From Pseudoalteromonas ulvae UL12 (lineage in GTDB: Bacteria; Pseudomonadota; Gammaproteobacteria; Enterobacterales; Alteromonadaceae), in contig NZ_AQHJ01000034.1 in assembly GCF_014925405.1 (NCBI RefSeq), positions 268,751-332,750 of the forward strand: a DNA stretch of 64,000 nucleotides. The letters run 5' to 3'. A model generated the notes under the pieces. The model was not told the DNA's origin. It made no database searches and was given only the letters and a program-made list of their open reading frames with translations. The number at the start of each line of letters is the position of its first letter. Position 1 is the stretch's first letter. Positions 5,431 to 35,870 of the stretch are shown here, in pieces. Both the position numbers and the translations under genes were made by a program.

Positions 5431-5453
5431 TTTAAATAATGAAAGGGAACGCA

Positions 5454-6869
5454 ATGAATACAATGAAAAATATCGCACTTTCTTTAATTGCAGCAGCAGT
5501 CTTAGCTGGATGTGGCGGCGATGATGGCAAAGACGGTGTGGCAGGCGCACAAGGTGTTGCAGGTCAAGATGGCGCTAACGGCACGAGTGTCTTTGTGACC
5601 ACGCAAGATGTGATCAACACTAACGCACAACATGCGTATGCTGTGTATGCCGATTCATTGATTGCGGCGAAAGCATTAAAAGAACAGCTTGCAATATTTG
5701 TTGCCAACCCTACAGATTCAAACTTTACCTTAGCTAAACAATCATGGTTAGCGGCACGTGAACCGTACGGTCAATCTGAAGTCTTTCGTTTTCGCGAAGG
5801 GCCGATTGATAATTTAACTAAAGATGATGCGGGCAACTGGGTACTAGAGCCAGAAGCAGGCCCTGAGGGGGCAATTAATGCTTGGCCACTTGCAGAAGCC
5901 TTGATTGATTACACCCAAGATATGGATGGTTTACAAAATCCAGAAAACCCAAGCTCGCTCCCTGCTGGTGGCAATATTATCGCTGATATAACAAGCTTTC
6001 CTGTAATCGACAAAGCGACGATCCAAGCGCAGTTTGAGCGCGGTGATGATGAAGCGAATGTGACCTCTGGATATCACGCCATTGAGTTTTTATTATGGGG
6101 TCAAGATTTAAACGCTGACGGTACTTATACAGCCAATCGTGATTATTCTGCTGGCTATCGTAAAGCCAGTGATTTTTATACGATTGAGAATCAAATGGGA
6201 CAATGTACGTCTGGCGAAGCCGGTGCTGCCAATGAAATTTGTTTGCGCCGCGCTGAGTATTTACTAGCTGCAGCTGACTTGTTAATTGATGATTTAAAAT
6301 CAGTTGTTGATGCGTGGACACCAGGCAGTGGCTTCCACTATGTTGCTTTTACACAAGCAGAAACGCAAAAACAGTCTTTAGCTAAAATTTTAGAAGGAAT
6401 GGGGCGCTTAAGTTACGGCGAATTGGCGGGCGAGCGCATGAGTATTGCCCTTCGTACTGACTCACAAGAAGATGAGCATTCATGTTTTTCAGATAATACG
6501 CACCGTGATATTTTCTTAAATGCCAAAGGGATTCAAAATGCCTTTAATGGCCAATACACTCGCTTTGATGGCGAAGTGTTACAAGGGGCCAGTGTTTACG
6601 ATTTACTTGTGGTTGCAGGACACCCTGAACTTGCGAATAAATTACGCGGTGCACTTGAAGAAACTATGGCTAAAGCTGCAGTAATCGACACCACAGCTAA
6701 ATTAGGGTATTCGTTTGATGTGCAAATTCAACAGCCTGAATTAAAAGGGGCTGTTACGCACACGATTGAAGCACTTAAAACACAAACTCAAGTTATTAAA
6801 GAAGTGATCGAAGCGCTTGAAGTCACGACAGGTGATCTTGAAGGTGATACTGACGAGTTTGGCGGTTAA
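5454..6869 (+). CDS. Imelysin-family iron-regulated lipoprotein (IrpA/ICMP-like)
   Basis: A 471-residue lipoprotein: signal peptide with lipobox LAGC (Cys20), then a short collagen-like run of Gly-X-Y triplets (residues 25-43), then an imelysin domain. The family GxHxxE motif is intact as Gly206-His208-Glu211 in GYHAIEFLLWGQD. Imelysins are periplasmic or surface helical-bundle proteins tied to iron uptake; protease activity is doubtful and their precise chemistry is unsettled. The ATG at 5454 is preferred over 5439 because AAAGGGA lies just upstream of it. It is the first gene of an apparent iron cluster behind one or two Fur boxes. A terminator at 6887 separates it from the di-haem genes and may reduce their expression. 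Confidence 0.88.
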   Translation: MNTMKNIALSLIAAAVLAGCGGDDGKDGVAGAQGVAGQDGANGTSVFVTTQDVINTNAQHAYAVYADSLIAAKALKEQLAIFVANPTDSNFTLAKQSWLAAREPYGQSEVFRFREGPIDNLTKDDAGNWVLEPEAGPEGAINAWPLAEALIDYTQDMDGLQNPENPSSLPAGGNIIADITSFPVIDKATIQAQFERGDDEANVTSGYHAIEFLLWGQDLNADGTYTANRDYSAGYRKASDFYTIENQMGQCTSGEAGAANEICLRRAEYLLAAADLLIDDLKSVVDAWTPGSGFHYVAFTQAETQKQSLAKILEGMGRLSYGELAGERMSIALRTDSQEDEHSCFSDNTHRDIFLNAKGIQNAFNGQYTRFDGEVLQGASVYDLLVVAGHPELANKLRGALEETMAKAAVIDTTAKLGYSFDVQIQQPELKGAVTHTIEALKTQTQVIKEVIEALEVTTGDLEGDTDEFGG

Positions 6870-6886
6870 TCCTAGCTTGCATATTT

Positions 6887-6912
6887 AGCCCATCCATTTG
6901 GATGGGCTTTTT
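6887..6912 (+). terminator. Rho-independent terminator inside the iron cluster
   Basis: Perfect 9-bp stem AGCCCATCC (6887-6895) / GGATGGGCT (6900-6908), loop ATTT, then TTTTT. It falls between the first imelysin gene and the first di-haem gene, so it probably sets unequal levels within the cluster. Confidence 0.88.
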
Positions 6913-6978
6913 GCGTTTATTGGAAAGGTTAAGCGAATTAAGTTAAATGGGTTATTTTTCATCTTGCGTGGGGCGACA

Positions 6979-8637
6979 ATGAAAAAGCAGTTTTGTGTAG
7001 TAAGTTGTGTTGTGTGGTTAGTGGCGTGTGGTGGTGGAGGTAATGAGCAAAAAACAGAAGTGATCCCTCCTGTGACTCCTCCTAGTGTGGTGATGCCGGG
7101 TCAACCTGACGATGGTTTAGCTGCGCTTAGCCCTATCACACCTGATAATGTTGAGCATTTAGCGGGTGGGGACGTCACCACCATAGTCAGCAATCAAGAT
7201 GCGTTTAGTCAGTCAGCTCCCGCAATCCGTAGTGACTTTGAACTCGATGGTGTGTTTAAGTCTGGCGATCATTTATTTCGGGGAGTGCATGCAGGGCAAG
7301 GGCCACTTTTTAATAACCCGACTTGCCAAGGCTGCCATATTAAAGATGGCCGCGGTGAGGTACCAAGTCACCCTTCAGAGGCAATGAGCAGTATGTTTTT
7401 GCGGATCAGCGATGCGCAAGGAAATGCGGATCCTATCTATGGCGATCAAATTCAGACATTTGGCTTAAAAACAGGTCAATCACAAGGCTTGTTACCTAAG
7501 CACAGAGGGGCGATAGAAGAAGGTATTGCCTATGGCGAGGCGTATGCGTGGGTTGAATATAAGTTAATCGAAGGAGTGTTTGATGATGGCACGCCTTATC
7601 AGTTACGCCAACCAACGTATAAAGTAAAAGACTTATCTTATGGTGATTTTAATCCAGATGTGCGGTTATCACCTCGGGTCACTCCAAGCATTTTTGGCGC
7701 AGGTTTGTTAGAAGCCATTCCTGAAGCGTCAATTCTCAGTTATGCCGATGCAGATGATGTGAATAAAGATGGGATTTCTGGTCGAGCTGTGTTTGTTACT
7801 GAGCCGATTTCTTTACAGTCGAAGTTAGCGCGCTTTGGTTATAAGGCTGTGACAGCCTCAGTGTTGCAGCAAATATCAGGCGCTTATCGCGGTGATATGG
7901 GGATCACTAATGTGGTCGCGACGCAAGAATCGTGTACTGACTTACAACCAGCTTGTATTGAGCAAGCCGCTCAAGAACAAGATAAAGAGCAAGATGGATT
8001 GGATTTAAGTGCTTTAGCGTTAGCGCAAGTTGAGTTTTACAATCGTTTATTGGCTGTACCAATGCGACGAGGATTTGATAGCAATAGCCAAAGTTGGCAA
8101 GCGGATGTGTTGGCTGGCCGCACTCTCTTTTTTAATGCGCAATGTGCCAGTTGCCATATTCCGCGACATAAAACCGGCGAAGCGCAAGGAAGCTTACTCG
8201 GTGATGCGGGTTTACTCGATTTGGCTGACAGCCGCACACCGATTGCAGCCTTAAGCAATCAAGTTATTTATCCCTATACTGACTTACTTTTGCACGACAT
8301 GGGGGGAGCTTGTGAGCTTATAGCGCGAGAAACAGCGCAAGGAGAGGCGTGTGATGACGGCGCGCAATGTTATTGGGTACAACGATGTCAGGGACTTGCA
8401 GATGATCGCCCAGAAGGCAGTGCATCAGGCACAGAATGGAAAACACCACCACTTTGGGGCCTAGGTTTAGTAAAAACAGTTAATCCAAGAGCGACTTTTT
8501 TACATGATGGCCGAGCTCGCTCAATCAGTGAGGCTGTGTTGTGGCATGGTGGAGAAGCAAGCGCGGCAAAAGATAACTTCAAAGCGATGACTTTAACTGA
8601 GCGTGATCAGTTACTGACATTTTTAAATTCGCTATAA
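6979..8637 (+). CDS. Di-haem DUF1111 oxidoreductase-like lipoprotein 1
   Basis: A 552-residue lipoprotein (VACGGGG, Cys17). Two c-type haem sites are visible: CQGCH (Cys116-Cys119-His120) and CASCH (Cys389-Cys392-His393). The DUF1111 signatures include DPIYGDQIQTFG, DGTPYQLRQPTY, LLEAIPEA, ISGRA, LLLHDMGG and FLHDGRARS...LWHGGEA. The family is related to di-haem cytochrome c peroxidases (MauG-like) and is often called thiol oxidoreductase without proof. The ATG at 6979 is used because the longer in-frame start at 6898 lies inside a terminator hairpin and would hide the signal peptide. With the next gene it makes a di-haem pair, plausibly passing electrons during ferrous/ferric iron handling by the flanking imelysins. 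Confidence 0.88.
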   Translation: MKKQFCVVSCVVWLVACGGGGNEQKTEVIPPVTPPSVVMPGQPDDGLAALSPITPDNVEHLAGGDVTTIVSNQDAFSQSAPAIRSDFELDGVFKSGDHLFRGVHAGQGPLFNNPTCQGCHIKDGRGEVPSHPSEAMSSMFLRISDAQGNADPIYGDQIQTFGLKTGQSQGLLPKHRGAIEEGIAYGEAYAWVEYKLIEGVFDDGTPYQLRQPTYKVKDLSYGDFNPDVRLSPRVTPSIFGAGLLEAIPEASILSYADADDVNKDGISGRAVFVTEPISLQSKLARFGYKAVTASVLQQISGAYRGDMGITNVVATQESCTDLQPACIEQAAQEQDKEQDGLDLSALALAQVEFYNRLLAVPMRRGFDSNSQSWQADVLAGRTLFFNAQCASCHIPRHKTGEAQGSLLGDAGLLDLADSRTPIAALSNQVIYPYTDLLLHDMGGACELIARETAQGEACDDGAQCYWVQRCQGLADDRPEGSASGTEWKTPPLWGLGLVKTVNPRATFLHDGRARSISEAVLWHGGEASAAKDNFKAMTLTERDQLLTFLNSL

Positions 8638-8642
8638 CAGTC

Positions 8643-10046
8643 ATGATTAAAAAATATAGTTTACTCGTTCTTATCACTTGGTTGTGCGCCTGCACCGATG
8701 CCTCAAAAGCCCCTGAATTTTCTGATTCAGAATTACGCCCGGGTGGCGAGGCAACCTTAAAAAGGGTCAATACCCGAACATTTATTCATCCGTCTGGCAA
8801 TCTTTCCATTGATCATGAATTGGAGTTTTGGGATGGACTGTCTTTTTTTCGTGATCCATGGGTGGCTTCACCTGCCATAACGGCAGATAGAGATGGCCTT
8901 GGGCCTTTGTATAATGCTCGTTCGTGTAAGGCATGTCATAGCCGAGGAGGTCGCGGTCGGTTGGTTACAGAAGGTGTGTCGAGTCCGATGGCGTTATTGT
9001 TTCGGTTAGGGCATGGCGAGCAACAGCGACCCGATCCTATTTATGGTGCTCAGTTGCAGACATTTGCGGTGCTCACCCCGACAAATTCACCTAAATTACA
9101 GGCTGAAGGACAAGTTGAATTGCAGTATGAATTCATTGAAGGGCAGTTTGCTGATGGTACGCGTTATCAATTACGTAAACCGAGTTATCGGATCGTTAAT
9201 TTGAGTCAGGGAGAGCTGCATCAAGAAACGCAGATATCGCCTCGTTATGCGCCGGCAATTTATGGCATGGGATTGTTAGATGCGATAGATACACAGGATT
9301 TGCTCAGCCTTGAAGATGAGTTCGATAGCAATAATGATGGAATTAGCGGCCGCTATAATCGTGTACCAGATGTACTGACGGGCGAGATGTCAGTCGGGCG
9401 ATTTGGCTTTAAAGGTTTGCACCCTACGTTGAATCAGCAAATTGCTGGTGCGTTTGTTAATGATATTGGGATTACTAATCCGTACTTTCGTAAAGAAACC
9501 TGCCAATCAACTCAGCTGGCTTGTTTAGCTGAAGCAAAGCGAGTTAAAGGGGAGGAGCAGCCTGAAATACCCACTAAGTTGTTGCAAACCACAGAATTTA
9601 TGAGTGCTCAATTAGCAGTCCAGCCTACTCGAAATTTAAAAAGTGCCGAAGCCCAGTCCGGGCGAGAAATTTTTTATCAACTCGGTTGTCACCTTTGTCA
9701 TCAGCCTCGCTTTAAGACGCGGGTGGACTATTCATTACCCGAATTAGCAGGGCAAGTGATTTGGCCTTACACCGATTTGGCATTGCATGATATGGGAGAA
9801 GAGTTAGCGGATGGTAAGCGTGAGCATTTGGCAAATGGCCGAGAATGGCGCACAGCGCCACTTTGGGGAATTGGCTTACAGCATCGAATTCAAGGCTATC
9901 AGGCATATTTACATGATGGTCGAGCACGAACCATCAATGAAGCCATTTTATGGCACGGCGGTGAAGCAAAAACATCTCAAGAGAAATATTTAGCCTTATC
10001 AGCAAGCGAGCGCCAAGCGTTACTTTTTTTCTTAACACAAATTTAA
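8643..10046 (+). CDS. Di-haem DUF1111 oxidoreductase-like lipoprotein 2
   Basis: A 467-residue paralogue of the preceding gene, 5 bp downstream of its stop. Signal peptide with lipobox LCAC, haem sites CKACH (Cys95-Cys98-His99) and CHLCH (Cys349-Cys352-His353). Shared segments include DPIYGAQLQTFAV, DGTRYQLRKPSYR, GMGLLDAI, NNDGISGRYN, LALHDMG and YLHDGRARTINEAILWHGGEA. It is about 85 residues shorter, lacking the acidic insertions and the extra Cys-rich stretch (GACELIARET to CQGLAD) before the C-terminal block. Anchoring at a membrane on the periplasmic or surface side is inferred from the lipobox. Confidence 0.88.
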   Translation: MIKKYSLLVLITWLCACTDASKAPEFSDSELRPGGEATLKRVNTRTFIHPSGNLSIDHELEFWDGLSFFRDPWVASPAITADRDGLGPLYNARSCKACHSRGGRGRLVTEGVSSPMALLFRLGHGEQQRPDPIYGAQLQTFAVLTPTNSPKLQAEGQVELQYEFIEGQFADGTRYQLRKPSYRIVNLSQGELHQETQISPRYAPAIYGMGLLDAIDTQDLLSLEDEFDSNNDGISGRYNRVPDVLTGEMSVGRFGFKGLHPTLNQQIAGAFVNDIGITNPYFRKETCQSTQLACLAEAKRVKGEEQPEIPTKLLQTTEFMSAQLAVQPTRNLKSAEAQSGREIFYQLGCHLCHQPRFKTRVDYSLPELAGQVIWPYTDLALHDMGEELADGKREHLANGREWRTAPLWGIGLQHRIQGYQAYLHDGRARTINEAILWHGGEAKTSQEKYLALSASERQALLFFLTQI

Positions 10047-10067
10047 TCAGTTTTGACAGGAACCAAT

Positions 10068-11204
10068 ATGAACAAATACCTATGTGTGATGCTGAGCGCA
10101 TCATTATTAACGGCATGCGGCGGTGGGAGCAAGCAAAGTACCCCTGTGGTCGTTGAGCCTCCCCCTGTTGTGGTTAAAACAAACGAACAAGCGATGAGTG
10201 CGATACTAACGGACTTAGCCGATAAAGTGATTATTCCTGACTATCAGCAATTTCAGCAGCGCAGTGAAGCATTTGAAGTGGCTTCGACGCAGTTTTGCTC
10301 GCTGAGTCAAGCAAACCAAAGCGATTTGACAGCATTACAACAAAGTTGGTTAGCGCTAAATGCAGCTTGGCATGCAACTCGTGCGACAAAGTTGGGCCCG
10401 GTATTTAAGCAATTTCGCTATTCACGTTTGCAAACTTGGCCAGACAACAATGCAGCTGTTTCGCGAGGAGTGGCAACGCTTTTAGCCTCTGATAATTTAA
10501 CTGCACAGGTTGTGGCCAATACTCAAGATGGTGCTCAGGGCTTACCTGCCTTAGAGTATTTAATTTTTGCTGAGCAATCAGAGAATAGCTTGCTCAATGC
10601 CACAGATAAAGCGAAGCGTTGTTTAGCTGTCATGGCTATTGCTGCCAATGTGACGCAACTGAGTACTGAACTCGTGACTGGCTGGCAAACTGAAGGAGAC
10701 AACTTTCGTGCTCAATACGTCGCTGGTAACGGTGATTTTGTATCAACCAAAGATGCACTAGAAGAGCAGCTCACAAATTGGTTTGAATTAGTCGAAATAA
10801 TTACGGATAACAAAATTGCTGAACCGCTAGATCTGTTATCGCCAGGGGTAATAACCAATGCTGAGCAATATCGCAGTCAAAGCTCGCTTATGAATATTGA
10901 ACAAAATTTGCTGTCATTACAGCGCATTTACTTAGGTGGCCAGGGATATGGTTTTGATGATTATTTAGCAGAAATTTATCAGGCGCAGACTCTTGATAAC
11001 GCAATCAAAGAAGCATTTAGCGGCGTTTTTACCACTTTGAATGATGTTAATGATGTGCTTGAAGTGGCCATCACAACCGATGACGGGCGCAGCCAATTAG
11101 TAGCGCTCAGTAACAAAATTAAGGCGCTGCGCACCATTATGGCCAGTGATTTTGTGCAAACAACGGGTCTTAATCCAAGCTTTAACTCTAATGACGGGGA
11201 TTAA
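10068..11204 (+). CDS. Second imelysin-family lipoprotein
   Basis: A 378-residue lipoprotein (lipobox LTAC, Cys17) with a Pro/Val linker and a helical imelysin domain. The equivalent of GxHxxE reads GLPALEYLIF (Gly158, Glu163); the His is replaced by Pro-context residues, as in the GLPALEYLL subgroup of imelysins. The ATG at 10068 has ACAGGA 7 nt upstream and is preferred over the in-frame TTG at 10053. It begins 21 bp after the second di-haem gene and is followed 1 bp after its stop by the DUF1513 gene, so the four genes from 6979 read as one operon. Pairs of the two imelysin types with DUF1111 and DUF1513 genes are a recurring Fur-linked arrangement in Pseudomonas and relatives. Confidence 0.85.
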   Translation: MNKYLCVMLSASLLTACGGGSKQSTPVVVEPPPVVVKTNEQAMSAILTDLADKVIIPDYQQFQQRSEAFEVASTQFCSLSQANQSDLTALQQSWLALNAAWHATRATKLGPVFKQFRYSRLQTWPDNNAAVSRGVATLLASDNLTAQVVANTQDGAQGLPALEYLIFAEQSENSLLNATDKAKRCLAVMAIAANVTQLSTELVTGWQTEGDNFRAQYVAGNGDFVSTKDALEEQLTNWFELVEIITDNKIAEPLDLLSPGVITNAEQYRSQSSLMNIEQNLLSLQRIYLGGQGYGFDDYLAEIYQAQTLDNAIKEAFSGVFTTLNDVNDVLEVAITTDDGRSQLVALSNKIKALRTIMASDFVQTTGLNPSFNSNDGD

Positions 11205-11205
11205 T

Positions 11206-12306
11206 ATGGTCGCTCTTTCGCGGCGTCGGTTTTGCCAATCAATAGCCGGTTTTGCTGGAATGATGATGTTGCCAAGCTGTTCATTGCAACAACGGGAAGA
11301 GCAGTTTGTTAGTGCTTACACCAATTCGCAAGGGCGACATTTTGTAGCTCGATTTAATCACCAAGCCAAGGTGCTCGCGCAAGTTGAGCTCCCGCTTCGT
11401 GGTCACGATATGGCGGTATCGCACACTGAATCTGGGCGCGTTTTGGTGTTTTCTCGGCGCCCAGGAAACTACATATTTGATGTTGATTTGAGTCGTGGCC
11501 ATCTTAATCAAGTTATAAAAGCGAATGCTGGTCGTCACTTTTTCGGCCATGGTGTTTTTAGCCCTGATGGGCTACGACTTTTTACGACCGAAAATGATTA
11601 TGACACTCAAACGGGCAAGGTTGTGGCTCGAGATGCGCAATCTTTGCAGGTGATTAATGAATTTGACAGTGGTGGAATTGGCCCACATCAGCTGGCGTGG
11701 TTAAATGATGGTCAAACTTTAGTGGTGGCCAATGGTGGGATTGCCACCCACCCTGATACGCCACGCAAAAAACTCAACTTAACAACCATGGCACCCAATC
11801 TTACTTATTTGGACGGTGTTAGTGGCGCAATCTTACAGCAGTTTTCTCCCCCTCATCATCAATTGAGTATTCGGCATTTAGCGGTCAATCAAGACAATAA
11901 AGTGGTAATTGGCATGCAGTTTCAAGGCGAACTCAGTGATATTAATCCGCTGGTGTTTACCCAACAAGGAAGTGGGCCGATCACAGCGTGCACTTCTTCA
12001 GTCGATGTTTGGCAAAAAATGAACCAGTATACGGCCAGTGTCAGTATTGATTTGGCGGCAAATATTGCAGCGGTCAGTTGCCCACGTGGTGGCTTTGTAA
12101 GTTTTTGGGATCTTAATCAAGACCTTCTGATTGATGAGTTTTCAATAAGAGACTGTGCAGGTATTTGCGTGACAAAAAACGGGTTTGTATTGAGTAACGG
12201 CAAAGGAGCGATACAGCAGGTTGCGCCTTTTTCGAGTAGTGCGTTGTCGCATTTTGAAGCTTCTGGGCACAAGTGGGACAATCATATGGTGAATTGGTTA
12301 AGTTAA
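11206..12306 (+). CDS. DUF1513 protein with Tat/lipobox signal, probable beta-propeller
   Basis: A 366-residue exported protein. The start reads VALSRRRFCQSIAGFAG, a twin-arginine motif (SRRRFC) followed by a hydrophobic run and LPSC, which could be a lipobox. The body has repeated WD/propeller-like blades (GHDMAVS, FGHGVFSPDG, GPHQLAWLNDGQTLVVANGG, LDGVSGAIL) characteristic of DUF1513. The ATG at 11206 follows GGGGA by 5 nt and lies 1 bp after the imelysin stop; an in-frame ATG at 11191 and the start at 11146 are less likely. It is the last gene of the iron cluster. The enzymatic role is unknown. Tat export suggests folding, perhaps with a cofactor, before transport. Confidence 0.82.
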   Translation: MVALSRRRFCQSIAGFAGMMMLPSCSLQQREEQFVSAYTNSQGRHFVARFNHQAKVLAQVELPLRGHDMAVSHTESGRVLVFSRRPGNYIFDVDLSRGHLNQVIKANAGRHFFGHGVFSPDGLRLFTTENDYDTQTGKVVARDAQSLQVINEFDSGGIGPHQLAWLNDGQTLVVANGGIATHPDTPRKKLNLTTMAPNLTYLDGVSGAILQQFSPPHHQLSIRHLAVNQDNKVVIGMQFQGELSDINPLVFTQQGSGPITACTSSVDVWQKMNQYTASVSIDLAANIAAVSCPRGGFVSFWDLNQDLLIDEFSIRDCAGICVTKNGFVLSNGKGAIQQVAPFSSSALSHFEASGHKWDNHMVNWLS

Positions 12307-26680: not shown

Positions 26681-27514
26681 ATGCTTCATATTACCAATGG
26701 CGATAATGCGAATTTATACCTTAAAAGAATCGGTATTCAAGGTGAGTTTCAGGCTTGGCAAGATGCTTTACATGAAGGGCAAATTACGGCTCATACTGAC
26801 TTAAAAGACATCAGCGAAATACGCGGTCATTTTTTGGCTGAATATTTTTGTATTGATTTAAAAATTGTACAAGAAAAATTCGCTGAGCGTGATGATACAC
26901 TGCTTCAATTACCTGAGCATGAAGCTATCACGCTATGGCTGACTCCAGAACTATTTGATGCCTTAATAGGGTTGCAGTTTTTAGCTTGGTACCGAGCAAC
27001 GGGTCGACCATTAAACCAGCTTTTTATCGTGATGCTTCCGGAGTATTTGCCGCCTCACGATTTAAATCCAGAACAAATATCACAACATTATCAAAGTCGT
27101 TTTAATCCCAGCGCTGAGTTTATTCAATTAGCTGAACAAGTGTGGTTAGGGCTGGTGACTTCTCTGAGTATGCTCGAGCATACATTGACACTTGATTTTA
27201 AGTTTTGGCCAAATCTTAAACCTGCGATGATACGTTACTTAGAAGAGAAGCGTTTGAATCATGGTTATAATCGGACTCAATGGCAAATTATAGAAGCCCT
27301 CGCGAATGGGCCTTTATCATTGGCGCAATTATTTGGTGCGAATCAAAACCAAGAAGAAGTGATATTTATGGGCGATCTCAGCTTTTGGTGTTTACTTGAA
27401 CAAATGCGCGATATTATTAATATCGATACTGATGAATGTATTTTGCATCAAGATATTGAGTTTTATCACGGACATCGGTGCGAGCTTAACTCCAAAGGTT
27501 GCTCTTTGTTATAA
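26681..27514 (+). CDS. DUF1835-like domain protein
   Basis: A 277-residue cytosolic protein whose first 110 residues (MLHITNGDNANLYLKRIGI..GEFQAWQDALHEGQI...) resemble DUF1835, a domain of unknown function with an HxxNGD start. The rest is helical and ends in a short HRCELNSKGCSLL tail. I cannot assign a role. Third gene after the cupin and SIMPL genes. Its stop is 82 bp from the convergent LuxR gene; no strong terminator is visible between them. Confidence 0.65.
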   Translation: MLHITNGDNANLYLKRIGIQGEFQAWQDALHEGQITAHTDLKDISEIRGHFLAEYFCIDLKIVQEKFAERDDTLLQLPEHEAITLWLTPELFDALIGLQFLAWYRATGRPLNQLFIVMLPEYLPPHDLNPEQISQHYQSRFNPSAEFIQLAEQVWLGLVTSLSMLEHTLTLDFKFWPNLKPAMIRYLEEKRLNHGYNRTQWQIIEALANGPLSLAQLFGANQNQEEVIFMGDLSFWCLLEQMRDIINIDTDECILHQDIEFYHGHRCELNSKGCSLL

Positions 27515-27595
27515 ATCACTAGATATACATGTTGATTTTAGTCAATAACAGTTTTTTATACTGGCATTGAAAGGGGAATATATTTAACAATTAAT

Positions 27596-28288
27596 CTATA
27601 CAAAACCCATGGCACAAAACTTTGCGATAGCTTGTTGCCTATTCGTGCTATTAGTTTTTCGAATGCAATTAGCAATATGATAATTAACTGTTCGGTCTGT
27701 GATGGTTAATATTTGGCTTATTTCCCACGATGTTTTTCCTTCAGTTGCCCATTTTAAGCACTCAATCTCCCGTTTCGTGAATTTTATTTCATTTGCTTTA
27801 CCTTTTTTACTTCTTTTAAATGCATCATACATATATTGAACACGGACAATAGATTTAAAATACTCGTCTTTTAGTGTTTTTTCATCTTTTGTTCTTAATA
27901 TTAAGCAGCCATATTCATATGCTGAACCTTTAAAAGGAATGAGTAATGTGTCGCTAAAAATATAAAAAGCTTTTTTCTTTTTTAAATCTTTTAATTGGTA
28001 GTAATTACTTATTTCGTTGATTCTAATTGGTTTGAAATCTGATTGACAATAAGATTTAATTAACTGACTTTCTATGATTAATTGAGAAAGTGCACTGCCT
28101 AGAGTTCCATATATATTTACAGAATCTTTCTCTGGTAGATCGACAGAAAAAACACAGAGTGCGTAACTGATAGCGTTTAAATTTTTTGCTATGCACTTTA
28201 TTTCACATTCTAACTCAGCTAGCGAATTCACTATTTCGAGTTTTCTTGTTGAGCCTTTTAGGTTATTAGTTGTTACTTCAGAGAGCAC
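27596..28288 (-). CDS. LuxR-type solo regulator with divergent ligand domain
   Basis: A 230-residue regulator. The C-terminal half has a LuxR/GerE HTH (about residues 165-225): FTKREIECLKWATEGKTSWEIS and TVNYHIANCIRKTN. The N-terminal 160 residues look like an autoinducer-binding fold (Y-A-L-C-V-F...NIYGTL) but lack the obvious W-x3-Y and D-P pair of acyl-homoserine-lactone receptors, so another signal is likely. The start is a GTG at 28288 with GGTGA 6-8 nt upstream; an ATG just before it runs into a stop. No luxI-like gene is present. It is AT-rich relative to its neighbours and stands divergent from the secreted-protein/cytochrome operon at 29070, which it may control (inference from position). 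Confidence 0.75.
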   Translation of the reverse strand: MLSEVTTNNLKGSTRKLEIVNSLAELECEIKCIAKNLNAISYALCVFSVDLPEKDSVNIYGTLGSALSQLIIESQLIKSYCQSDFKPIRINEISNYYQLKDLKKKKAFYIFSDTLLIPFKGSAYEYGCLILRTKDEKTLKDEYFKSIVRVQYMYDAFKRSKKGKANEIKFTKREIECLKWATEGKTSWEISQILTITDRTVNYHIANCIRKTNSTNRQQAIAKFCAMGFV

Positions 28289-29069
28289 TTAGTTCACCAT
28301 TAATTTAAATAAAGTTGCAAGTAATAAAAGCTAAAAATGAAAGTTAACATATTAATTTAGAATTTTAGCGAATTAATAGCATGTATGAATAGCTATTTTT
28401 AATGGTTGCATAGGATGGTTTTTGGATTTAATAAAATTAATTATTGATGTTAATGCCAATTTAATTATTAAGTTGGGACTGTGATTAATAGTTGAAGATT
28501 TCTTATTGTAAATACTGGTTTTGTTTATTTTTATATAAATTTCAATTTCAATTTCGGATTTGTGACCGTTTGATGTCAATTTTAAGTCAGTTTGGTAATC
28601 TGATTTTTTTACTTTAAAGTTACTAATTAGAGATTTTTTAGTTGTTTTTCTTTTAAACAAGTACGAACTTATTGCTGGTTTTAAACTGTTTAATTTGACT
28701 CGTGCCCACGCCGTATTAATCATTTCAATTAATCTAATAAAAACTTCTTATAAATAATGATAACAAGAATTATTAGTGATTCATAGTGCCTTTTATGGGT
28801 ACTGGTATATTTATCAGGTTTAATTGTTTTTAAAATTTTCATCCCAGAGAATCATATCGAGCTTTCATGTCGGTTTAATGAAGATTAAATCATCTTTGGG
28901 CTTAAGAACCTTTGTACATTGAATTTATGAAAATATTTATCTGATTACTGAGGGATTTAAATATATGTAATCAGGTAGGTGCTTTATAGGTTTGAGTTGT
29001 AACAAGTATTTGTCAAGGGAACGTTAATTTAAACAATACACTTAAAATTTAAGAGATTAGATAAATATC
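28289..29069. other. AT-rich intergenic region before the secreted-protein/cytochrome operon
   Basis: This 781-bp stretch is clearly more AT-rich than the rest of the window. I see no convincing gene: one minus-strand open frame (28373-28723, 116 codons) lacks a ribosome site and reads as low-complexity Lys/Ile/Asn. A perfect short dyad CTTAAA-A-TTTAAG lies at 29041-29053, 17 bp before the start of the next gene. The region is large enough to hold the promoter and operators of both the LuxR-type gene and the operon. Confidence 0.6.
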
Positions 29070-30332
29070 ATGACATCAACAATCAAAAAATCGAAACTAG
29101 CATTAGCATTGACTGCTGCTGCTTTTTCAGCATTTGCAACCGCTGCGCCATTAGATCAATCAGAAAAAGATGTTCAAGGCTTTTTCTCTGTCGATACTCA
29201 GCAAGCATATAATTTATATGCTGATTCTGCTGATCAAAACTTAGTTTGGTATGTTCCTAAAGTAGGCCAAATTGCTTTGTCGGGAGCCAGCACTTCCGCC
29301 CCTAAACCTCGTTTTTCAGTTTATTCTCGCGCACCTTGGACGGGTATTTTTGCAGGCCAAAATTTAGTTCATTTTGGTGGTGCATTTAATACCTCAGGTG
29401 ACCGTGGTGCGCTTTTAAAGCTAGAAAGTGAAGCACAAGCTCAAGGATTTCGAGTCGCTCCAGCTCAAGCTGCAAAAGTAACAACTAAGTTTTTATTAAC
29501 TGATTTGGTTGTTGGTAATGATGGTCGAATTGACACTCATTGTGATACTGAAGAGTGGACAGGCCCTAATGGCACTGTGCTTATTCCGGTATGTAAGGCA
29601 TTAAATAACCAAGGAGAGTGGGTTAATACTGACTTCCTGTCGAAATTTAGAGCTGCGACCCCACGAGGGAATAGCACTGTATCGACTTATATCCCATTCC
29701 AAGCGACCAGCATGCCTGATTGGGATTTCACGATTCAAGAGTGGATGGAAACGGGCTCAAACTGGGATGCGAATATTCAAGCTGTAGCTGAGTGGGAACT
29801 GACCACAGTCAAAAAAGTGCGTGTAGCAAGAATCAATATTGATTGGTCACGTACTTTTGAGCAAGCGAGCACTTTTTTTGCAATTCATAATAATGCTTGC
29901 TTAGAAGTTGAAATTGGGACTTTCTTCAAGCGTTTACTTGATAACCAAAATGGTGAATCGGGTATTACAGTTGAGTATTTACAAGCAGATGGTTCATATG
30001 CCAAAGAACCAACTTCTGAAGAGCACTTCATTCAAACAGTTGAAGCAGTTCGCAAAGAAATGCGTGATGAATTGTTTAATGAGATGCGTGATTATGGCCA
30101 ATCTCAAATTGGTGATGTGAATAGAGAAGCCACAGCCATGTACACCTTAAGAGCTAATTATGAAAAATTAGTATTTAAACGTAACGAAACTCGTTACGTA
30201 TCTTGGAATCCAGGTTCAAGTGTGACTAATGCCGCTACAAATATGAATATTCAATGTGTTCGTGGTGGATTTGGTACGCAAGTAACTTGGGATATGGATG
30301 ATGCTGCGTGTAGAAATATCGCGGGTCAATAA
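29070..30332 (+). CDS. Secreted protein of unknown family, paralogue of the 32479 gene
   Basis: A 420-residue protein with a signal peptide ending ATAAPLD. I recognise no domain. Segments shared with the 492-residue protein at 32479 include FSVDTQQAYNLYADS, VWYVPKVG, a Cys pair in HCDTEEW..PNG..IPVCKAL..QGEW, PDWDFTIQEWMETGSNWDA and a late MNIQC. This marks a two-domain paralogous family with probable disulfides. It is predicted periplasmic or surface-exposed and soluble. Start ATG has only a weak AAGAG far upstream. It is the first gene of four on this strand that also contain a tetra-haem cytochrome; the next gene begins 85 bp later. No catalytic motif is visible. Confidence 0.75.
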   Translation: MTSTIKKSKLALALTAAAFSAFATAAPLDQSEKDVQGFFSVDTQQAYNLYADSADQNLVWYVPKVGQIALSGASTSAPKPRFSVYSRAPWTGIFAGQNLVHFGGAFNTSGDRGALLKLESEAQAQGFRVAPAQAAKVTTKFLLTDLVVGNDGRIDTHCDTEEWTGPNGTVLIPVCKALNNQGEWVNTDFLSKFRAATPRGNSTVSTYIPFQATSMPDWDFTIQEWMETGSNWDANIQAVAEWELTTVKKVRVARINIDWSRTFEQASTFFAIHNNACLEVEIGTFFKRLLDNQNGESGITVEYLQADGSYAKEPTSEEHFIQTVEAVRKEMRDELFNEMRDYGQSQIGDVNREATAMYTLRANYEKLVFKRNETRYVSWNPGSSVTNAATNMNIQCVRGGFGTQVTWDMDDAACRNIAGQ

Positions 30333-30417
30333 TTATCCACAGTACATATTGAGCTTGAAACCCAGTTAAGGTTTCAAGCTTTATGGCCTTATTTATCAGC
30401 TCCAAGTAGGAAGAAAA

Positions 30418-31281
30418 ATGAATACAAAAATAGTATTGAGCACGCTACTTTTTAGTGGTTTAACATGTATCAACGTTGGTGCGACGACATTAGATGAAAT
30501 AGATTTTGCCAGCGCAATCGAAACGCAAGACTTACTGTATGCGCCAATAAAAGGTACAACCTCCAATCGTGGTGCCTTTTGGTATAAAGATATACAACAA
30601 AAAGTAGTGGGACCTTCTAGCGCCGGTTGGGGAATAAAACGAATTACGGTTAGAGCTTTTCCACAAAGCCATAATAATAATGTCTATACTGATTTTGTTT
30701 CTGCTAATAGCATCCTTGATATTCGACAAAACATTTTACCAACAGACGCTATTTTATGTGAAGCAACAGACGCATTGGTCAATAAATTGAAGGATTATGG
30801 AATTTATTACAACCTTCAATCTAATACAGGGAATTACCCGAGCGTCTGTTCTTTACAGTTAAAATATCAAACTAGTAATGAACAACAAGAAGCTGAGATA
30901 GTTGATTTTATTAATCAAAATAAAGTCATCAATGTTAGTTACAATATTTTAAGTTCAGCGACACCTGCTGTTTATATGGATGCACCTGCTATTGTGTCTG
31001 CATTAGTGGATGACTCCATCTTGGTGCTGGATGTGCCAAAAGAGCGCTATACAGGCGATGCATACAAGGTGCTTTTTCAAAGTGCTCAATATGCGAGCTC
31101 ATTGTTTCGAAGTGATAAAACCAATGGTGAGCAGCTTGAATATACTGATTGGAAACGCTTCATCGATTTACATGAGTTTTCGACTTCAGCCACATTATTA
31201 CTTGATAAAAGCAAGGTGGAACAGCAGGTTGAAGTGACTGTCCCAGGTAGTCAAGAGCAAATTTTGAGTGTGAACTTTTAA
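30418..31281 (+). CDS. Secreted protein of unknown function in cytochrome operon
   Basis: A 287-residue protein with a signal peptide (ends CINVGATTLDE). The mature part contains LLYAPIKGTTSNRGAFWYKD, a distant echo of the WYVPKVG segment of the flanking paralogues, and two Cys in ILCEATDAL and SVCSLQL that could pair. A C-terminal LLLDKSKVEQQVEVTVPGS is beta-rich. I do not recognise a family. AGGAAGA precedes the ATG. The cytochrome gene starts 1 bp after its stop, which indicates co-translation. Confidence 0.72.
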   Translation: MNTKIVLSTLLFSGLTCINVGATTLDEIDFASAIETQDLLYAPIKGTTSNRGAFWYKDIQQKVVGPSSAGWGIKRITVRAFPQSHNNNVYTDFVSANSILDIRQNILPTDAILCEATDALVNKLKDYGIYYNLQSNTGNYPSVCSLQLKYQTSNEQQEAEIVDFINQNKVINVSYNILSSATPAVYMDAPAIVSALVDDSILVLDVPKERYTGDAYKVLFQSAQYASSLFRSDKTNGEQLEYTDWKRFIDLHEFSTSATLLLDKSKVEQQVEVTVPGSQEQILSVNF

Positions 31282-31282
31282 G

Positions 31283-32482
31283 TTGATTCGTTACTTAATA
31301 CTGATTTGGGCTCTACTTTTGCTTTCACTTTCTTATGAGAGCCAAGCCGAAGTAGACACCTTAATTAGTGAGTGCCAAGGATGTCATACCGACAACCGTA
31401 TCGTGGTCGAAGAGCGCTTTTCTAATGGGTTTGGTAAATGGACAGATGCGCAATGTTTTGGTTGTCATCAAGAAATTACCCAGATTGCGGTTAAGTTTAA
31501 TTCAGGAGAAAAAGATAAACGCTATTTTAGCTTGCCTGTTAGTGACACTAAATTGAAGCTAATCGGCCATCATGCTTTATCTTATTTAAATGCGCCTCTT
31601 AACCCAGTGAGACATTCCGCCAAACGAGAGCGATTTGATCGTGTTTCTTTGGAAGGTTTTTTGAAAAGACCGTTCGGCAAGTGTGATCAGTCTGGAAGTT
31701 GCCAAGCACCAACGATGATGGCATACCCAAAATTATCAAAGCAAAGCTTAGAGCATTTCGCTCAATGGCTAGCCCCATCAACAAAAAGTAGCAGTAATAA
31801 TGTAACTCCATCAGATGATGCCACTGCTACTTTAGTTGGCGAGACTGTTTTTGAAAGAAAATGCGCAGCGTGTCATAGAGATAGTGTTGTGAGTGGTTAC
31901 AACACTGTCGGGCTTAGCTTATTTTCGGAGCGGTGGTTATTTAAGTATGCCAATAAATTGTCAACTACTGATACGCCCGAACGTAATATGCCAACTGTTG
32001 CAATAACTAAAGCTGAAGCTACGCAATTGGCTGCTTTTTTTAATATTGAGCGCGCCAATCAAGAGCGTCAACTAGATAATTCACTCCGCGATATTCCCAC
32101 TATTTTTAAACAAGATGAGAGTTCCCCACTTTCAAAGGGAGAGCGTTTTTATCTTTGGAAACGACTGTGGCGAGATAATAGCTGCGTTCATTGTCATGGT
32201 ATTGAAGGGCGAGCAAATCGTGCTTTTGATACCTCTGAAGCTGGTATTACTCGTTGGGTAACCACCAATGACCCGTTTGATTTATATGCTCGGTTAGTGA
32301 CTCGGAAAAAAGAATCTCAATTTGGGATTGGAGCTAAGCGCCCTGGCATGCCAATGACCAAACCCCCAGTCCCCATGGAAGTGACTTCTTTAATTAGCCG
32401 TTGGATAAAAAATGGCTGTGTTGATTTACACAACGAAGTGCTTTGCAAAAATAATAAATTGAATAATAAGAAGGTTAAATGA
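31283..32482 (+). CDS. Tetra-haem secreted cytochrome c
   Basis: A 399-residue exported protein with four CxxCH haem c sites: CQGCH (Cys31), CFGCH (Cys58), CAACH (Cys194) and CVHCH (Cys301). Possible distal Met ligands are in PTMMAYP (145-146), ERNMPTV (236) and RPGMPMTKPP (356-358). The layout suggests an N-terminal di-haem part and two mono-haem cytochrome c domains. Two further Cys pairs (134/140 and 379/388) could be disulfides. The start is a TTG at 31283, 1 bp after the upstream stop. It overlaps the next gene by 4 bp. Role: electron transfer in or outside the periplasm, partner unknown; the flanking secreted proteins are the obvious candidates. Confidence 0.85.
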   Translation: MIRYLILIWALLLLSLSYESQAEVDTLISECQGCHTDNRIVVEERFSNGFGKWTDAQCFGCHQEITQIAVKFNSGEKDKRYFSLPVSDTKLKLIGHHALSYLNAPLNPVRHSAKRERFDRVSLEGFLKRPFGKCDQSGSCQAPTMMAYPKLSKQSLEHFAQWLAPSTKSSSNNVTPSDDATATLVGETVFERKCAACHRDSVVSGYNTVGLSLFSERWLFKYANKLSTTDTPERNMPTVAITKAEATQLAAFFNIERANQERQLDNSLRDIPTIFKQDESSPLSKGERFYLWKRLWRDNSCVHCHGIEGRANRAFDTSEAGITRWVTTNDPFDLYARLVTRKKESQFGIGAKRPGMPMTKPPVPMEVTSLISRWIKNGCVDLHNEVLCKNNKLNNKKVK

Positions 32483-33957
32483 AAGTCATGTATTTCAAGC
32501 TGCAGCTGATATGCGCCATTGTATTGTGCTTAATCGTTAGCAATCAGAGCAGTGCAACTCCAGTATCGCCTGAAGTTGATAATATCGCCAGCCGATTTAG
32601 CGTTGATATCCAAAGAGAATTTCATTTATTCTCTGATTCGTTAAATCGCCGAACCGTGTGGTATATCCCTAAAGTTGGCGGCATTAAAAGGGTCGGTAAT
32701 AGTCCGGCGTTTTCAGTGTTTGCAACCACCATCGAAACAGGCCCTTTTTCTGGTGAAAGTGCGGTGAATTTTGAAGGAAAGTTTAATGCATTGAGTCGCA
32801 CTTCTTTGATTGCAAGATTAAATGCAGAAGCGTCAAGCAAAGGTTTGTTGATTAAACCGGCTGAGATATCAGCCGCGGATACTCGTGTATTATTGGCAGG
32901 TTTTCAGTTAGATAATGACGGACAACTAAAAACCACTTGTGACATTGAAATATGGCAAAGCCCAAATGGGCCAATTCAAATCCCTGTTTGTAAGGCTTTG
33001 GACGATCAAGGAAACTGGCAAGAAGTTGACTTTTTATCTTCATTTTTAGCCATGTTGCCCATCGCAGGGAGTATCAATCAAGATATTCCATTTAAGGGGC
33101 AAACACTTCCTGGTTGGGATATGGCTATTTCAGATTTATTGGTGACAGGTTCTAGTTGGGATGCTGAAATCCAATTATTAACAGATTGGAAATTGAAAAC
33201 GAATACTCAACTTAGAGATGCGCGCGTTACTGTAAAATGGCGTGATTTAGTTAAGTATATGATTACAAAAATGATAGAGAATCGTTATTGGTCAATTACT
33301 AAAAGTAAACTAGATAGAATATTAACCCAAGCCATAAATAACCGCAGTGGTATCTCAGTACTGTATTTCCATAGTAATGGCTTAACTTCACAATCACCGC
33401 AAGACGCGAGTCAAAAAAATAGAATAAAAAACAACTTATTACATGTATTAAGAAAAGAGTTATTCATCCCTGTTTTTAGCCCGCGAAATGTGCTGACTAA
33501 TTTAGTGTCAAAACCGGATCCGATTAACCCACACTTACCTTACACAACACCTAGTTTTGAAGAGGTGGAAAGAAAGTGGCGTAAAAACTCTGATCATGTT
33601 TACGAAAGAGTTGTTCAACCAGTTTACAGTATCAATGTCAATAAGGCTTCAGCTTATTACCCGCCTCCTCAGTGCCCATACACCAGCGCTGTTAATTCGA
33701 CAAGAGCTTACCAATGTCATGATCCTGAGCCTTGTTTATATTCAGCTAGAGGTGAGTGTTACCCACCACCACCTCCAATTTGGGAAGCGCGATATATCTT
33801 AAAATCAAATTATTGGCGATTGTTAAGCAAGCCATCATCTAGCTTTAATGTTTACTTGAACGGAATAGAGATGCTCAATGCTTCAACTTATATGACCATT
33901 GACTGTATTGAAGGGGATATTGATGTGCCGCTCAGGTATGTCGCTAATTGCCAATAA
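32479..33957 (+). CDS. Secreted paralogue of the 29070 protein with Cys/Pro-rich insert
   Basis: A 492-residue protein with a signal peptide (ends QSSATPVS). It aligns with the 420-residue protein across its length: FSVDIQREFHLFSDS, VWYIPKVGGI, TCDIEIW..PNG..IPVCKALDDQGNW, PGWDMAISDLLVTGSSWDA and a C-terminal YMTIDC. It differs by an insert around residues 393-433 containing PPPQC, YQCHDPEPC and GECYPPPPP, that is four Cys within a proline-rich stretch. The start overlaps the tetra-haem gene by 4 bp (ATGA) with AAGG upstream, so it is translationally coupled. Family and role are unknown. A strong terminator closes the operon. Confidence 0.75.
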   Translation: MKVMYFKLQLICAIVLCLIVSNQSSATPVSPEVDNIASRFSVDIQREFHLFSDSLNRRTVWYIPKVGGIKRVGNSPAFSVFATTIETGPFSGESAVNFEGKFNALSRTSLIARLNAEASSKGLLIKPAEISAADTRVLLAGFQLDNDGQLKTTCDIEIWQSPNGPIQIPVCKALDDQGNWQEVDFLSSFLAMLPIAGSINQDIPFKGQTLPGWDMAISDLLVTGSSWDAEIQLLTDWKLKTNTQLRDARVTVKWRDLVKYMITKMIENRYWSITKSKLDRILTQAINNRSGISVLYFHSNGLTSQSPQDASQKNRIKNNLLHVLRKELFIPVFSPRNVLTNLVSKPDPINPHLPYTTPSFEEVERKWRKNSDHVYERVVQPVYSINVNKASAYYPPPQCPYTSAVNSTRAYQCHDPEPCLYSARGECYPPPPPIWEARYILKSNYWRLLSKPSSSFNVYLNGIEMLNASTYMTIDCIEGDIDVPLRYVANCQ

Positions 33958-33971
33958 CGATTTCATGAAAC

Positions 33972-34008
33972 AAAAAAACCAGTCATAACAATGACTGGTT
34001 TTTTATTA
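33972..34008. terminator. Bidirectional rho-independent terminator
   Basis: Perfect 10-bp stem AACCAGTCAT (33977-33986) / ATGACTGGTT (33991-34000) with loop AACA, A-run on the left and T-run on the right. It ends both the cytochrome operon and the convergent DUF885 gene. Confidence 0.95.
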
Positions 34009-34031
34009 GCTTAAGCTTTGTTTGTATTGAA

Positions 34032-35870
34032 TTAAGCTTTTCCGGCTGAAGCGATATACTCATCAACATAACGTTCTAAAACATTAAGTGGAAGCGGTCC
34101 ATTTTTTAGTACAACATCATGGAATTGGCGAATATCAAACTTATCACCCAACTGCTTTTTAGCATGTTCGCGTAGCTCTTGAATTTTCAGCATACCGATT
34201 TTATAAGCCGTTGCTTGTGATGGCATGACAACATGACGCTCAACCATTTTGACACCGTCAGACGTCGCATTCGGCGTGTTGTTTACATAGTAATCAATCC
34301 CTTCTTGGCGAGTCCATTTCATCGCGTGAATACCTGTGTCGACGACTAAGCGACAGGCGCGCCAGAGTTCCATCGCGAGGCGACCAAAATCAGAGTACGG
34401 ATCTGCATATAAGCCCATCTCTTTTGGAACAAGTTCAGAGTATAAACCCCAACCTTCAACATAGGCTGTGTAACCACCAAACTTACGGAATTTTGGAATA
34501 CCCTCTAACTCTTGCGCAATCGCAATTTGCATATGGTGGCCTGGCACACCTTCATGATAAGCCAGTGCTTCTAACTGATAAGTTGGCATTGCTTCCATGT
34601 CATACAAGTTCGCATAGTAAATGCCTGGACGCGAACCATCTGGCGCTGGTTGTTGATAAAACGCTTTACCGGCGGCTTTTTCACGGAATGCTTCAACGGC
34701 TTTAACTTGTAAATCCGCTTTAGGTTTGATGATAAATAACTCGTCTAAACGTGCTTTCATATCGTCAATGACTTTAACAGCTTCATCTAAATACGCTTGC
34801 TTACCTTCTGCGGTATTGGGGTAATAGAATTGCTTGTCAGTTTTCATGAATTCCATAAAAGCAGCTAAGTCACCTTTAAAGCCAACTTTTTCTTTTATTT
34901 CACGCATTTCATCATGAATACGGGCTACTTCACTTAAACCAATCGCGTGGATTTCTTTCGCGGTAAGAGCGGTTGTAGTGGTACGGGCTAGGGCGTTGTT
35001 ATAAAACGCTTCGCCATCAGGGAATTTCCACGCACCATCACGTTCATCAGCGCGTTTTTCAAGTTGCTCTAAGTAGCTAATTAACTTGCTATAAGCCGGT
35101 TTGATCGCCACTTTAAGGCTTTGTGTAGCTTCACTGATTAAAGCTTTTTTTTCTGACTCTTCAATGTCGAGTGCTGTCACTTTTCGAGTAAAGTCAGCAA
35201 GAAGTGTAGAATCTTCACCTTGTTCAAATGGTGCACCTTTAATGATGTTTTTACTTGAATCAATTACATGAGGAAAGACAAACTTTGGAGCGATAATGCC
35301 TTTTTGCGCACGGACTTCGAGGTCTTTTTCAAGCTGCTCAAATACAGTCGGCACACCATTTAGACGAGAAATATAAGCTTTTGCATCGGCTACGTCGCTG
35401 ATCTGGTGTTGGTTAATCAAAAATGCCGGTACCATAGAATGTGTGCCGAACATTTGATTCACTGGATAGTTATGATAACGCCATTTGAAATCCGCGATGT
35501 TCTCTTCTAACCCTTGTTTGAATAGGTCATAACTGGTTTGTGTAATAGGATCCAGTTGATCGCGATTAATGGTCATTAAAGTGGCTAAATCTTTCTTGGT
35601 CAGTGCTAAGTCTTCAAGGGCACGCTCTTCTGAACCATCATCCCATTTATCGTAATCTTGTTTAATGCCCATGTATGTTTGATAGACAGGGCTTCGCATG
35701 ACGCCGCGCATGAAGACTTCTTCAAAAAATGCATTCGCTTTTTCGACTTCGCTGGCCACAACTTGAACTTGAGCGGGCGCAGGTGTGCTTTGTGCGTTTG
35801 GCGCTTGTTGGCAGCCAGCCAAAAGAGCAGCACTAATAGTGGCTGCTATGAGAGTCATTTTACGCATCAT
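34032..35870 (-). CDS. DUF885 peptidase-like lipoprotein
   Basis: A 612-residue lipoprotein (signal peptide with LLAGCQQ). The DUF885 domain carries HEGVPGHHMQIA, the HExxxHH-like metal motif of this family, and YVEGWGLYSE, which supplies the later Glu. The family is treated as zinc metallopeptidase-like, with substrates mostly unproven. AAGGTAAT lies before the ATG at 35870. It is separated from hemW by 89 bp and is probably monocistronic. Confidence 0.88.
   Translation of the reverse strand: MMRKMTLIAATISAALLAGCQQAPNAQSTPAPAQVQVVASEVEKANAFFEEVFMRGVMRSPVYQTYMGIKQDYDKWDDGSEERALEDLALTKKDLATLMTINRDQLDPITQTSYDLFKQGLEENIADFKWRYHNYPVNQMFGTHSMVPAFLINQHQISDVADAKAYISRLNGVPTVFEQLEKDLEVRAQKGIIAPKFVFPHVIDSSKNIIKGAPFEQGEDSTLLADFTRKVTALDIEESEKKALISEATQSLKVAIKPAYSKLISYLEQLEKRADERDGAWKFPDGEAFYNNALARTTTTALTAKEIHAIGLSEVARIHDEMREIKEKVGFKGDLAAFMEFMKTDKQFYYPNTAEGKQAYLDEAVKVIDDMKARLDELFIIKPKADLQVKAVEAFREKAAGKAFYQQPAPDGSRPGIYYANLYDMEAMPTYQLEALAYHEGVPGHHMQIAIAQELEGIPKFRKFGGYTAYVEGWGLYSELVPKEMGLYADPYSDFGRLAMELWRACRLVVDTGIHAMKWTRQEGIDYYVNNTPNATSDGVKMVERHVVMPSQATAYKIGMLKIQELREHAKKQLGDKFDIRQFHDVVLKNGPLPLNVLERYVDEYIASAGKA

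Follow-up and report, generated by a model that had tools for sequence, protein, structure and literature searches.

Two known cases combine an exported protein and a c-type cytochrome in a single operon, CorA–CorB of Methylomicrobium album and MopE–SACCP of Methylococcus capsulatus. According to PMC3912023, CorA shares a transcript with the c-type cytochrome CorB, the suggested oxidant of a CorA tryptophan to kynurenine, and the structures of both CorA and MopE have been solved. Further points of comparison are the decahaem MtrC/OmcA proteins, which are exported multihaem c-type cytochromes of the outer membrane in Gammaproteobacteria, and the S-layer protein Slr4 of Pseudoalteromonas tunicata, exported, formerly family-less and from the same bacterial group as the locus discussed here (~59 kDa, predicted to be beta-helical and encoded beside type II secretion genes, according to PMC7821379). 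Here we analyse a 64,000-nucleotide stretch of Pseudoalteromonas ulvae UL12 (the window, to which coordinates refer unless another locus is named), in which four genes, A, B, C and D, are one unit encoding two exported-looking paralogues, a third exported-looking protein and a tetrahaem cytochrome. The features are as follows.

27596–28288, − strand: divergent LuxR-type (GerE) regulator, 230 residues
28289–29069: AT-rich gap of 781 base pairs (bp) between the regulator and gene A
29070–30332, + strand: gene A, 420 residues, exported (by eye), undescribed family, five invariant Cys
30351–30381, + strand: stem-loop in the A–B gap, 12-bp stem
30418–31281, + strand: gene B, 287 residues, exported (by eye), undescribed family, acidic, two invariant Cys
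31283–32482, + strand: gene C, 399 residues, TTG start, exported (by eye) tetrahaem c-type cytochrome
31373–31387, 31454–31468, 31862–31876 and 32183–32197: CxxCH haem sites of gene C
32479–33957, + strand: gene D, 492 residues, exported (by eye), paralogous to A, Cys/Pro-rich insert ahead of the last conserved segment
33973–34004: terminator-like stem-loop 3′ of D, 14-bp stem, assigned by the scan to the − strand (DUF885 gene)

The open reading frames agree with the preliminary description, which had reported four same-strand genes of these lengths, separated by 85, 1 and −4 bp (A–B, B–C and C–D), with paralogous ends, shared motifs and haem sites; the observation is confirmed, while its interpretation is partly supported. 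Export signals of all the proteins of the set were judged by eye. The stem-loop at 33973–34004 looks, by eye, symmetrical enough to serve D too. The system had also been called undescribed, and this stands, as the set is conserved and window A, B and D match no described family above the Pfam or NCBIfam cut-offs. The three proteins have no sequence match in the PDB at an expectation value (E-value) of at most 0.1; A alone has none among all PDB sequences at E-values up to 1 and a joint A+D profile none up to 5, and the best match of a B profile (0.38, to a fimbrial-subunit fusion) is chance-like. Across 22 A/D-type proteins no Pfam or NCBIfam family is matched above cut-off apart from one F5/8-type-C match in Agarilytica; the best NCBIfam match is to NF058595 (one row, E-value 0.0046), and a THxN PEP-CTERM match of A is likewise confined to one row (0.025). 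The four Rfam matches in window 27500–34100 are all far below gathering score. The literature covered, including the accessible portions of PMC12153261, PMC7821379, PMC2536512, PMC11784148 and PMC3912023, with supplements and most subscription journals outside it, does not mention the set.

The order A-B-C-D on one strand recurs at seven loci: in four genomes of the same genus (the window; G493, locus L012; G472, L013; G489, L014), in an uncultured Shewanella (L001), in Algicola sagamiensis (L002, genome G509) and on plasmid pSU1 of Agarilytica rhodophyticola (L011). Loss of gene order in relatives, named earlier as the observation that would count against the set, is thus not what we see. Within the genus, A is found in 4 of 108 genomes, B in 4 of 107 and C, at an E-value of at most 1e-20, in 4 of 107, always the same four, in each of which the D paralogue is the second match of A. 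In wider samples A occurs in 4 of 295 genomes of the family (three of the genus and G509) and in 1 of 394 for the order (single-sequence query), 1 of 369 for the class and 1 of 398 for the phylum, where the sole match is the window's genome. Among 5.8 billion proteins, a search that reaches only relatives sharing short words returned 23 relatives of A (two carrying the name Photobacterium) and four of B (one from the window itself), and no Pfam domain occurs in any of them; a further protein search with the A+D profile returned 18 proteins, the Agarilytica D being the only new one. One plasmid record was found, that of Agarilytica, and none of six pattern stretches in viral contigs encodes a relative. 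Across the seven loci, the pairwise identities of the four proteins correlate with r of 0.79–0.97, and no more than 6 of 2000 permutations reach such values, as expected if the genes are inherited together.

The surroundings of the block suggest that it is mobile. The 277-residue gene on its left flank is present in 6 of 40 genus genomes, the window's own included, and none of the other five is among the four A-bearing genomes. In three of these five (G452, G462 and G406) a DUF885 gene follows it at ~460, 215 and 1640 bp (match coordinates), while in G490 the two genes are far apart and in G487 on different contigs. Since three of the five relatives that keep the left gene have the two flanking genes side by side and no block between them, A-B-C-D is, judged from its flanks, an insertion at the window site. 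The four genus genomes hold the set at three different sites, in G472 and G489 between other genes. Window A shares 83% identity with A of Shewanella and only 58 and 54% with A of G472 and G489, whereas in 39 other genomes (G472 and G489 not shown among these) the top DUF885 match has 79–84% identity. This discrepancy points to horizontal movement of the block, one copy of which is plasmid-borne. In Shewanella an IS200/IS605-type transposase-like gene, recognised by eye, lies directly 3′ of D (L001 13096–13491, + strand) and is a possible trace of such movement.

A patchy, mobile and rare distribution would also suit a secreted antagonism or attack factor of an undescribed family, the more so as Algicola keeps a stand-alone paralogue of A and D. 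However, A, B, C and D match no toxin, immunity, defence or phage family (these four and one sequence of the associated gene E, described below, gave nothing in PADLOC or PHROGs at an E-value of at most 0.01), such a factor would hardly be expected to come with a tetrahaem cytochrome, and A is the most conserved member in five of six comparisons; we consider this explanation very unlikely. As the A/D, B and E families and an unusual C move jointly between genera and on a plasmid, the genes very probably act together.

As to how, we tentatively propose an exported assembly of A, B and D with C as its redox partner or maturing oxidase, similar to CorA–CorB but not a member of that group. This is a possible reading and not yet a probable one. 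A horizontally moving operon would here encode an exported, disulfide-bonded protein assembly together with a dedicated c-type cytochrome; A would be its abundant main subunit, B would be an assembly partner, and D, a minor paralogue, would anchor or target the complex (or form its tip) through its variable part, while lipoprotein E, where retained, would tie the assembly to the membrane. The calculated isoelectric points over the seven loci are 4.6–5.2 for A, 4.1–4.8 for B and 7.2–9.4 for C, so that a neutral to basic tetrahaem C could serve as redox partner of acidic A and B proteins. It would either exchange electrons with the assembly or mature it oxidatively, by Trp/Tyr or Cys modification, along the lines suggested for CorA–CorB. 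Gene order, co-occurrence, paralogy, the stronger conservation of A, the hairpin after it, and the haem motifs and ligand candidates of C are observed; export, abundance, assembly, the pairing of C with A and the chemistry are deduced from them. The likeness to CorA–CorB and MopE–SACCP consists of an exported protein and a c-type cytochrome in one operon (PMC3912023). Although CorA and MopE are solved, the A+D profile matches no solved sequence, a difference at the sequence level only; unlike CorB and SACCP, C has four CxxCH motifs and no di-haem peroxidase (CCP_MauG) match; and the set includes the additional B, D and E. Therefore, with neither homology to a solved sequence nor a peroxidase-type cytochrome above cut-off, the set does not belong to this group. 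If C matures or wires A, this would add one more example of an exported protein that is acted on by a c-type cytochrome. Slr4 differs from A by description, not by sequence comparison, as A has 420 residues and occurs in so few genomes of the genus. What is new is the gene set; the chemistry may prove to be of a known kind. For A/D, B and E no described relative was found, and C is a cytochrome of unusual architecture.

All four CxxCH sites of C, as claimed, are kept in the seven homologues. Class I and cbb3-type c cytochrome families (PF00034 and PF13442) match above cut-off at the two C-terminal haem regions, which is where the likeness to these proteins lies, and c3/c7-type families at the N-terminal haem pair; compared with class I and cbb3-type cytochromes C adds this N-terminal region of two haems, in which MMxYP is invariant and a further pair of Cys occurs. 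The Met ligands thought plausible at the outset remain so: M145/M146 and M356/M358 are invariant in 7/7, M236 is kept in five (V and H in the other two), and H303 is present in all seven but lies inside the fourth CxxCH motif. These six (M145, M146, M236, H303, M356 and M358) are all the further His or Met residues kept in at least five of seven sequences, the start Met aside; C134, C140, C379 and C388 are also invariant. No conserved further His for bis-His ligation of the N-terminal haem pair is found among the seven homologues. With so few conserved His and Met, and no spare His for this pair, one haem of C may therefore be open or unusually ligated.

The electron-transfer role put forward in the preliminary description is still an inference from the haems. 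As a rival reading, C might send respiratory electrons outward as an extracellular conduit, with A, B and D as a surface scaffold or matrix, as in the multihaem systems of Shewanella, a genus that provides one of the seven loci. The four haems and weak multihaem family matches, such as that to the OmcA/MtrC model TIGR03507 (23.9 bits, cut-off 209.3), agree with this. However, four haems are few compared with the roughly ten of MtrC and OmcA, and the score places C outside that family; no porin partner is recognised in the set, and none, nor a further multihaem gene, was recognised by eye beside it at the seven loci, where neighbours are mostly without family scans. Also, A, the best conserved member in five of six comparisons, carries no CxxCH. 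A conduit thus appears rather improbable, and we return to C as partner or maturing oxidase of an exported A/B/D assembly.

The paralogy of A and D proposed in the preliminary description is clear: they are 34% identical over 314 residues (E-value 1e-64), and profile–profile comparison gives probability 100 with an E-value of 8e-66. Both carry the motif VWYVPKVG/VWYIPKVG; they also share two paired Cys, which in A are C158/C175, and two more towards the end of the sequence, C396/C414 of A. W242 and W259 of A are invariant in all 23 rows of alignment A1, which holds window A and 22 of its 23 database matches (near-duplicates P0020–P0022 included, fragment P0004 excluded); alignment A4 holds six of seven sequences, without the Agarilytica D. 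The nearest relative of A, P0001, is named from P. tunicata, is 91% identical to window A and is identical to A of G493 (L012). P. tunicata serves as a model for biofilms, and single genes have been deleted in it (PMC12153261 and PMC7821379). The D-type proteins vary, with the Cys/Pro insert in window D, an apparent lipobox (by eye) in the Agarilytica D and lengths of 468–556 residues owing to the insert before the last conserved segment.

Three lines of evidence bear on the amounts of A and D. A is better conserved than B, C and D in five of the six comparisons with the window. A stem of at least 9 bp is found in the A–B gap at all seven loci, with differing sequences, and in 7 of 22 control gaps; a z of −2.9 or lower is reached at 5/7 loci and in 4/22 controls. 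Codon adaptation is highest for A among the four genes at five of seven loci. On the strength of conservation, the hairpin after A and codon adaptation, A is probably the abundant subunit and D a minor, variable paralogue.

Further paralogues accompany the set or stand apart from it. On the Agarilytica plasmid a 725-residue A/D paralogue lies directly upstream of A (L011 9419–11596, + strand), and Algicola has a stand-alone 407-residue paralogue away from the A-B-C-D set (L025 8212–9435, + strand), between a beta/gamma-crystallin-like gene and a gene for a 436-residue protein without a Pfam match at an E-value of at most 1e-5. The 725-residue protein contains two F5/8-type-C-like stretches (PF22633, E-value 1.5e-14, above cut-off), and a structural model of A shows weak immunoglobulin (Ig)-like resemblance in the fold search. 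Both would fit a complex that binds polysaccharide or a host surface, in which D-type proteins recognise the sugar or surface and C provides an oxidative step or electrons. But F5/8-type-C-like domains occur in only one of the 22 A/D-type proteins scanned, no carbohydrate-enzyme gene is recognised in the set, and A lacks a predicted mature N-terminal His (by eye), so that we regard a binding complex of this kind as unlikely. Lytic polysaccharide monooxygenases require such a mature N-terminal histidine for their copper brace; A was considered as one and rejected, since the predicted mature starts are AP, VP, YP and TP (by eye, in the A rows that show the signal region).

The exported assembly with its redox cytochrome could be taken further, to a new surface redox material built of abundant A, capped or anchored by D, given a protein-derived cofactor or conductivity by an open-haem C and moving as a block between marine Gammaproteobacteria. 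This extension is speculative and we think it unlikely to hold in full.

A number of observations weigh against the assembly, the roles of its parts or the abundance of A. Marine bacteria commonly export acidic proteins, and the conserved His and Met candidates could still fill all four haems of C. The Pfam scan of C found no CCP_MauG domain at E-values up to 1, and its one peroxidase-type NCBIfam match, NF040606, scores 10.9 bits against a cut-off of 150. Fold searches with A (PDB and viral structures) and B (PDB) gave nothing at an E-value of at most 0.001, nor evidence for a new fold; because neither has a convincing fold match, the assembly is not read from structure. On Agarilytica L011 A has no conservation lead (39%, against 40% for C). 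The terminator-like sites listed by the scan do not include the A–B stem, the hairpins after A may simply stabilise messenger RNA, and promoter-like sites are no commoner than in shuffles (17 versus 21.8). The codon argument fails at L014, where A is lowest, and at L001, and its yardstick is the ribosomal genes of one genome for all loci. Since gene E is broken in L012 and was recognised neither in the window nor on L011, it is inessential to the rest, and the GerE search found no regulator near the set in G472, G489 or G509 or on the plasmid.

B was tried as a distant relative of A and this is unsupported (BLASTP E-value 0.062, hhalign probability 11); its alignment A6 excludes the Agarilytica B. 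The fifth gene, E, encodes 514–625 residues with a lipobox (by eye) and no Pfam match above cut-off, and accompanies the set at four loci, 3′ of D at L013 and L014 and divergent, upstream of A, at L001 and L002. In the P. tunicata-like L012 a 229-residue open frame of E remains (7803–8492, − strand; tblastn E-value 9e-32), and E looks broken there since its lipobox-like start forms a separate weak tblastn piece upstream (0.33). A decayed E in the window gap was rejected, as tblastn of five E sequences against window 27500–29300 gave none at E-values up to 1. The antisense frame at 28373–28723 likewise fails as a remnant, scoring 41 against the L012 E where 300 shuffles average 38.3 and 98 of them score as high; against the L013 E 31 of 300 do. 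By these comparisons, a remnant of E is supported solely in L012. Four E sequences found no match in Agarilytica L011 at an E-value of at most 0.01. L012 also encodes a 319-residue exported-looking protein without a Pfam match between the flanking gene and luxR (5752–6711, − strand); the window has no open reading frame at the equivalent place.

The divergent gene was correctly recognised as LuxR-type by its DNA-binding domain, GerE (62.3 bits, cut-off 23.5), with TBPIP and HTH_40 below cut-off in the same Pfam search (E-values up to 1). Its designation as a LuxR solo in the quorum-sensing sense is unsupported, because GerE alone exceeds the cut-off and no autoinducer-binding domain appears at E-values up to 1. 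EpsA, the PEP-CTERM-associated regulator (TIGR03020), was considered and dropped (59.9 bits against 170, residues 146–224 only). A LuxR-type gene is near the set at three of seven loci, the window, L012 (66% identity) and Shewanella L001 (35% over 132 residues, with E in between); in G472 the nearest GerE gene on the set's contig is ~35 kilobases away. The gap between regulator and A is AT-rich as reported, an 822-bp stretch that includes 41 bp of A having 26% G+C. Its A-proximal part (28761–29069, 309 bp), taken together with the start of A, is 77% identical to L012 over 344 bp, and the gap is thus a partly conserved upstream region.

Elsewhere in the window, positions 5439–12306 hold a cluster of imelysin, two di-haem oxidoreductase, imelysin and DUF1513 genes, another group of exported proteins and c-type cytochromes, of known families. 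At 308–2102 a ZntR-type zinc regulator gene overlaps that of an SO_0444-family Cu/Zn efflux transporter.

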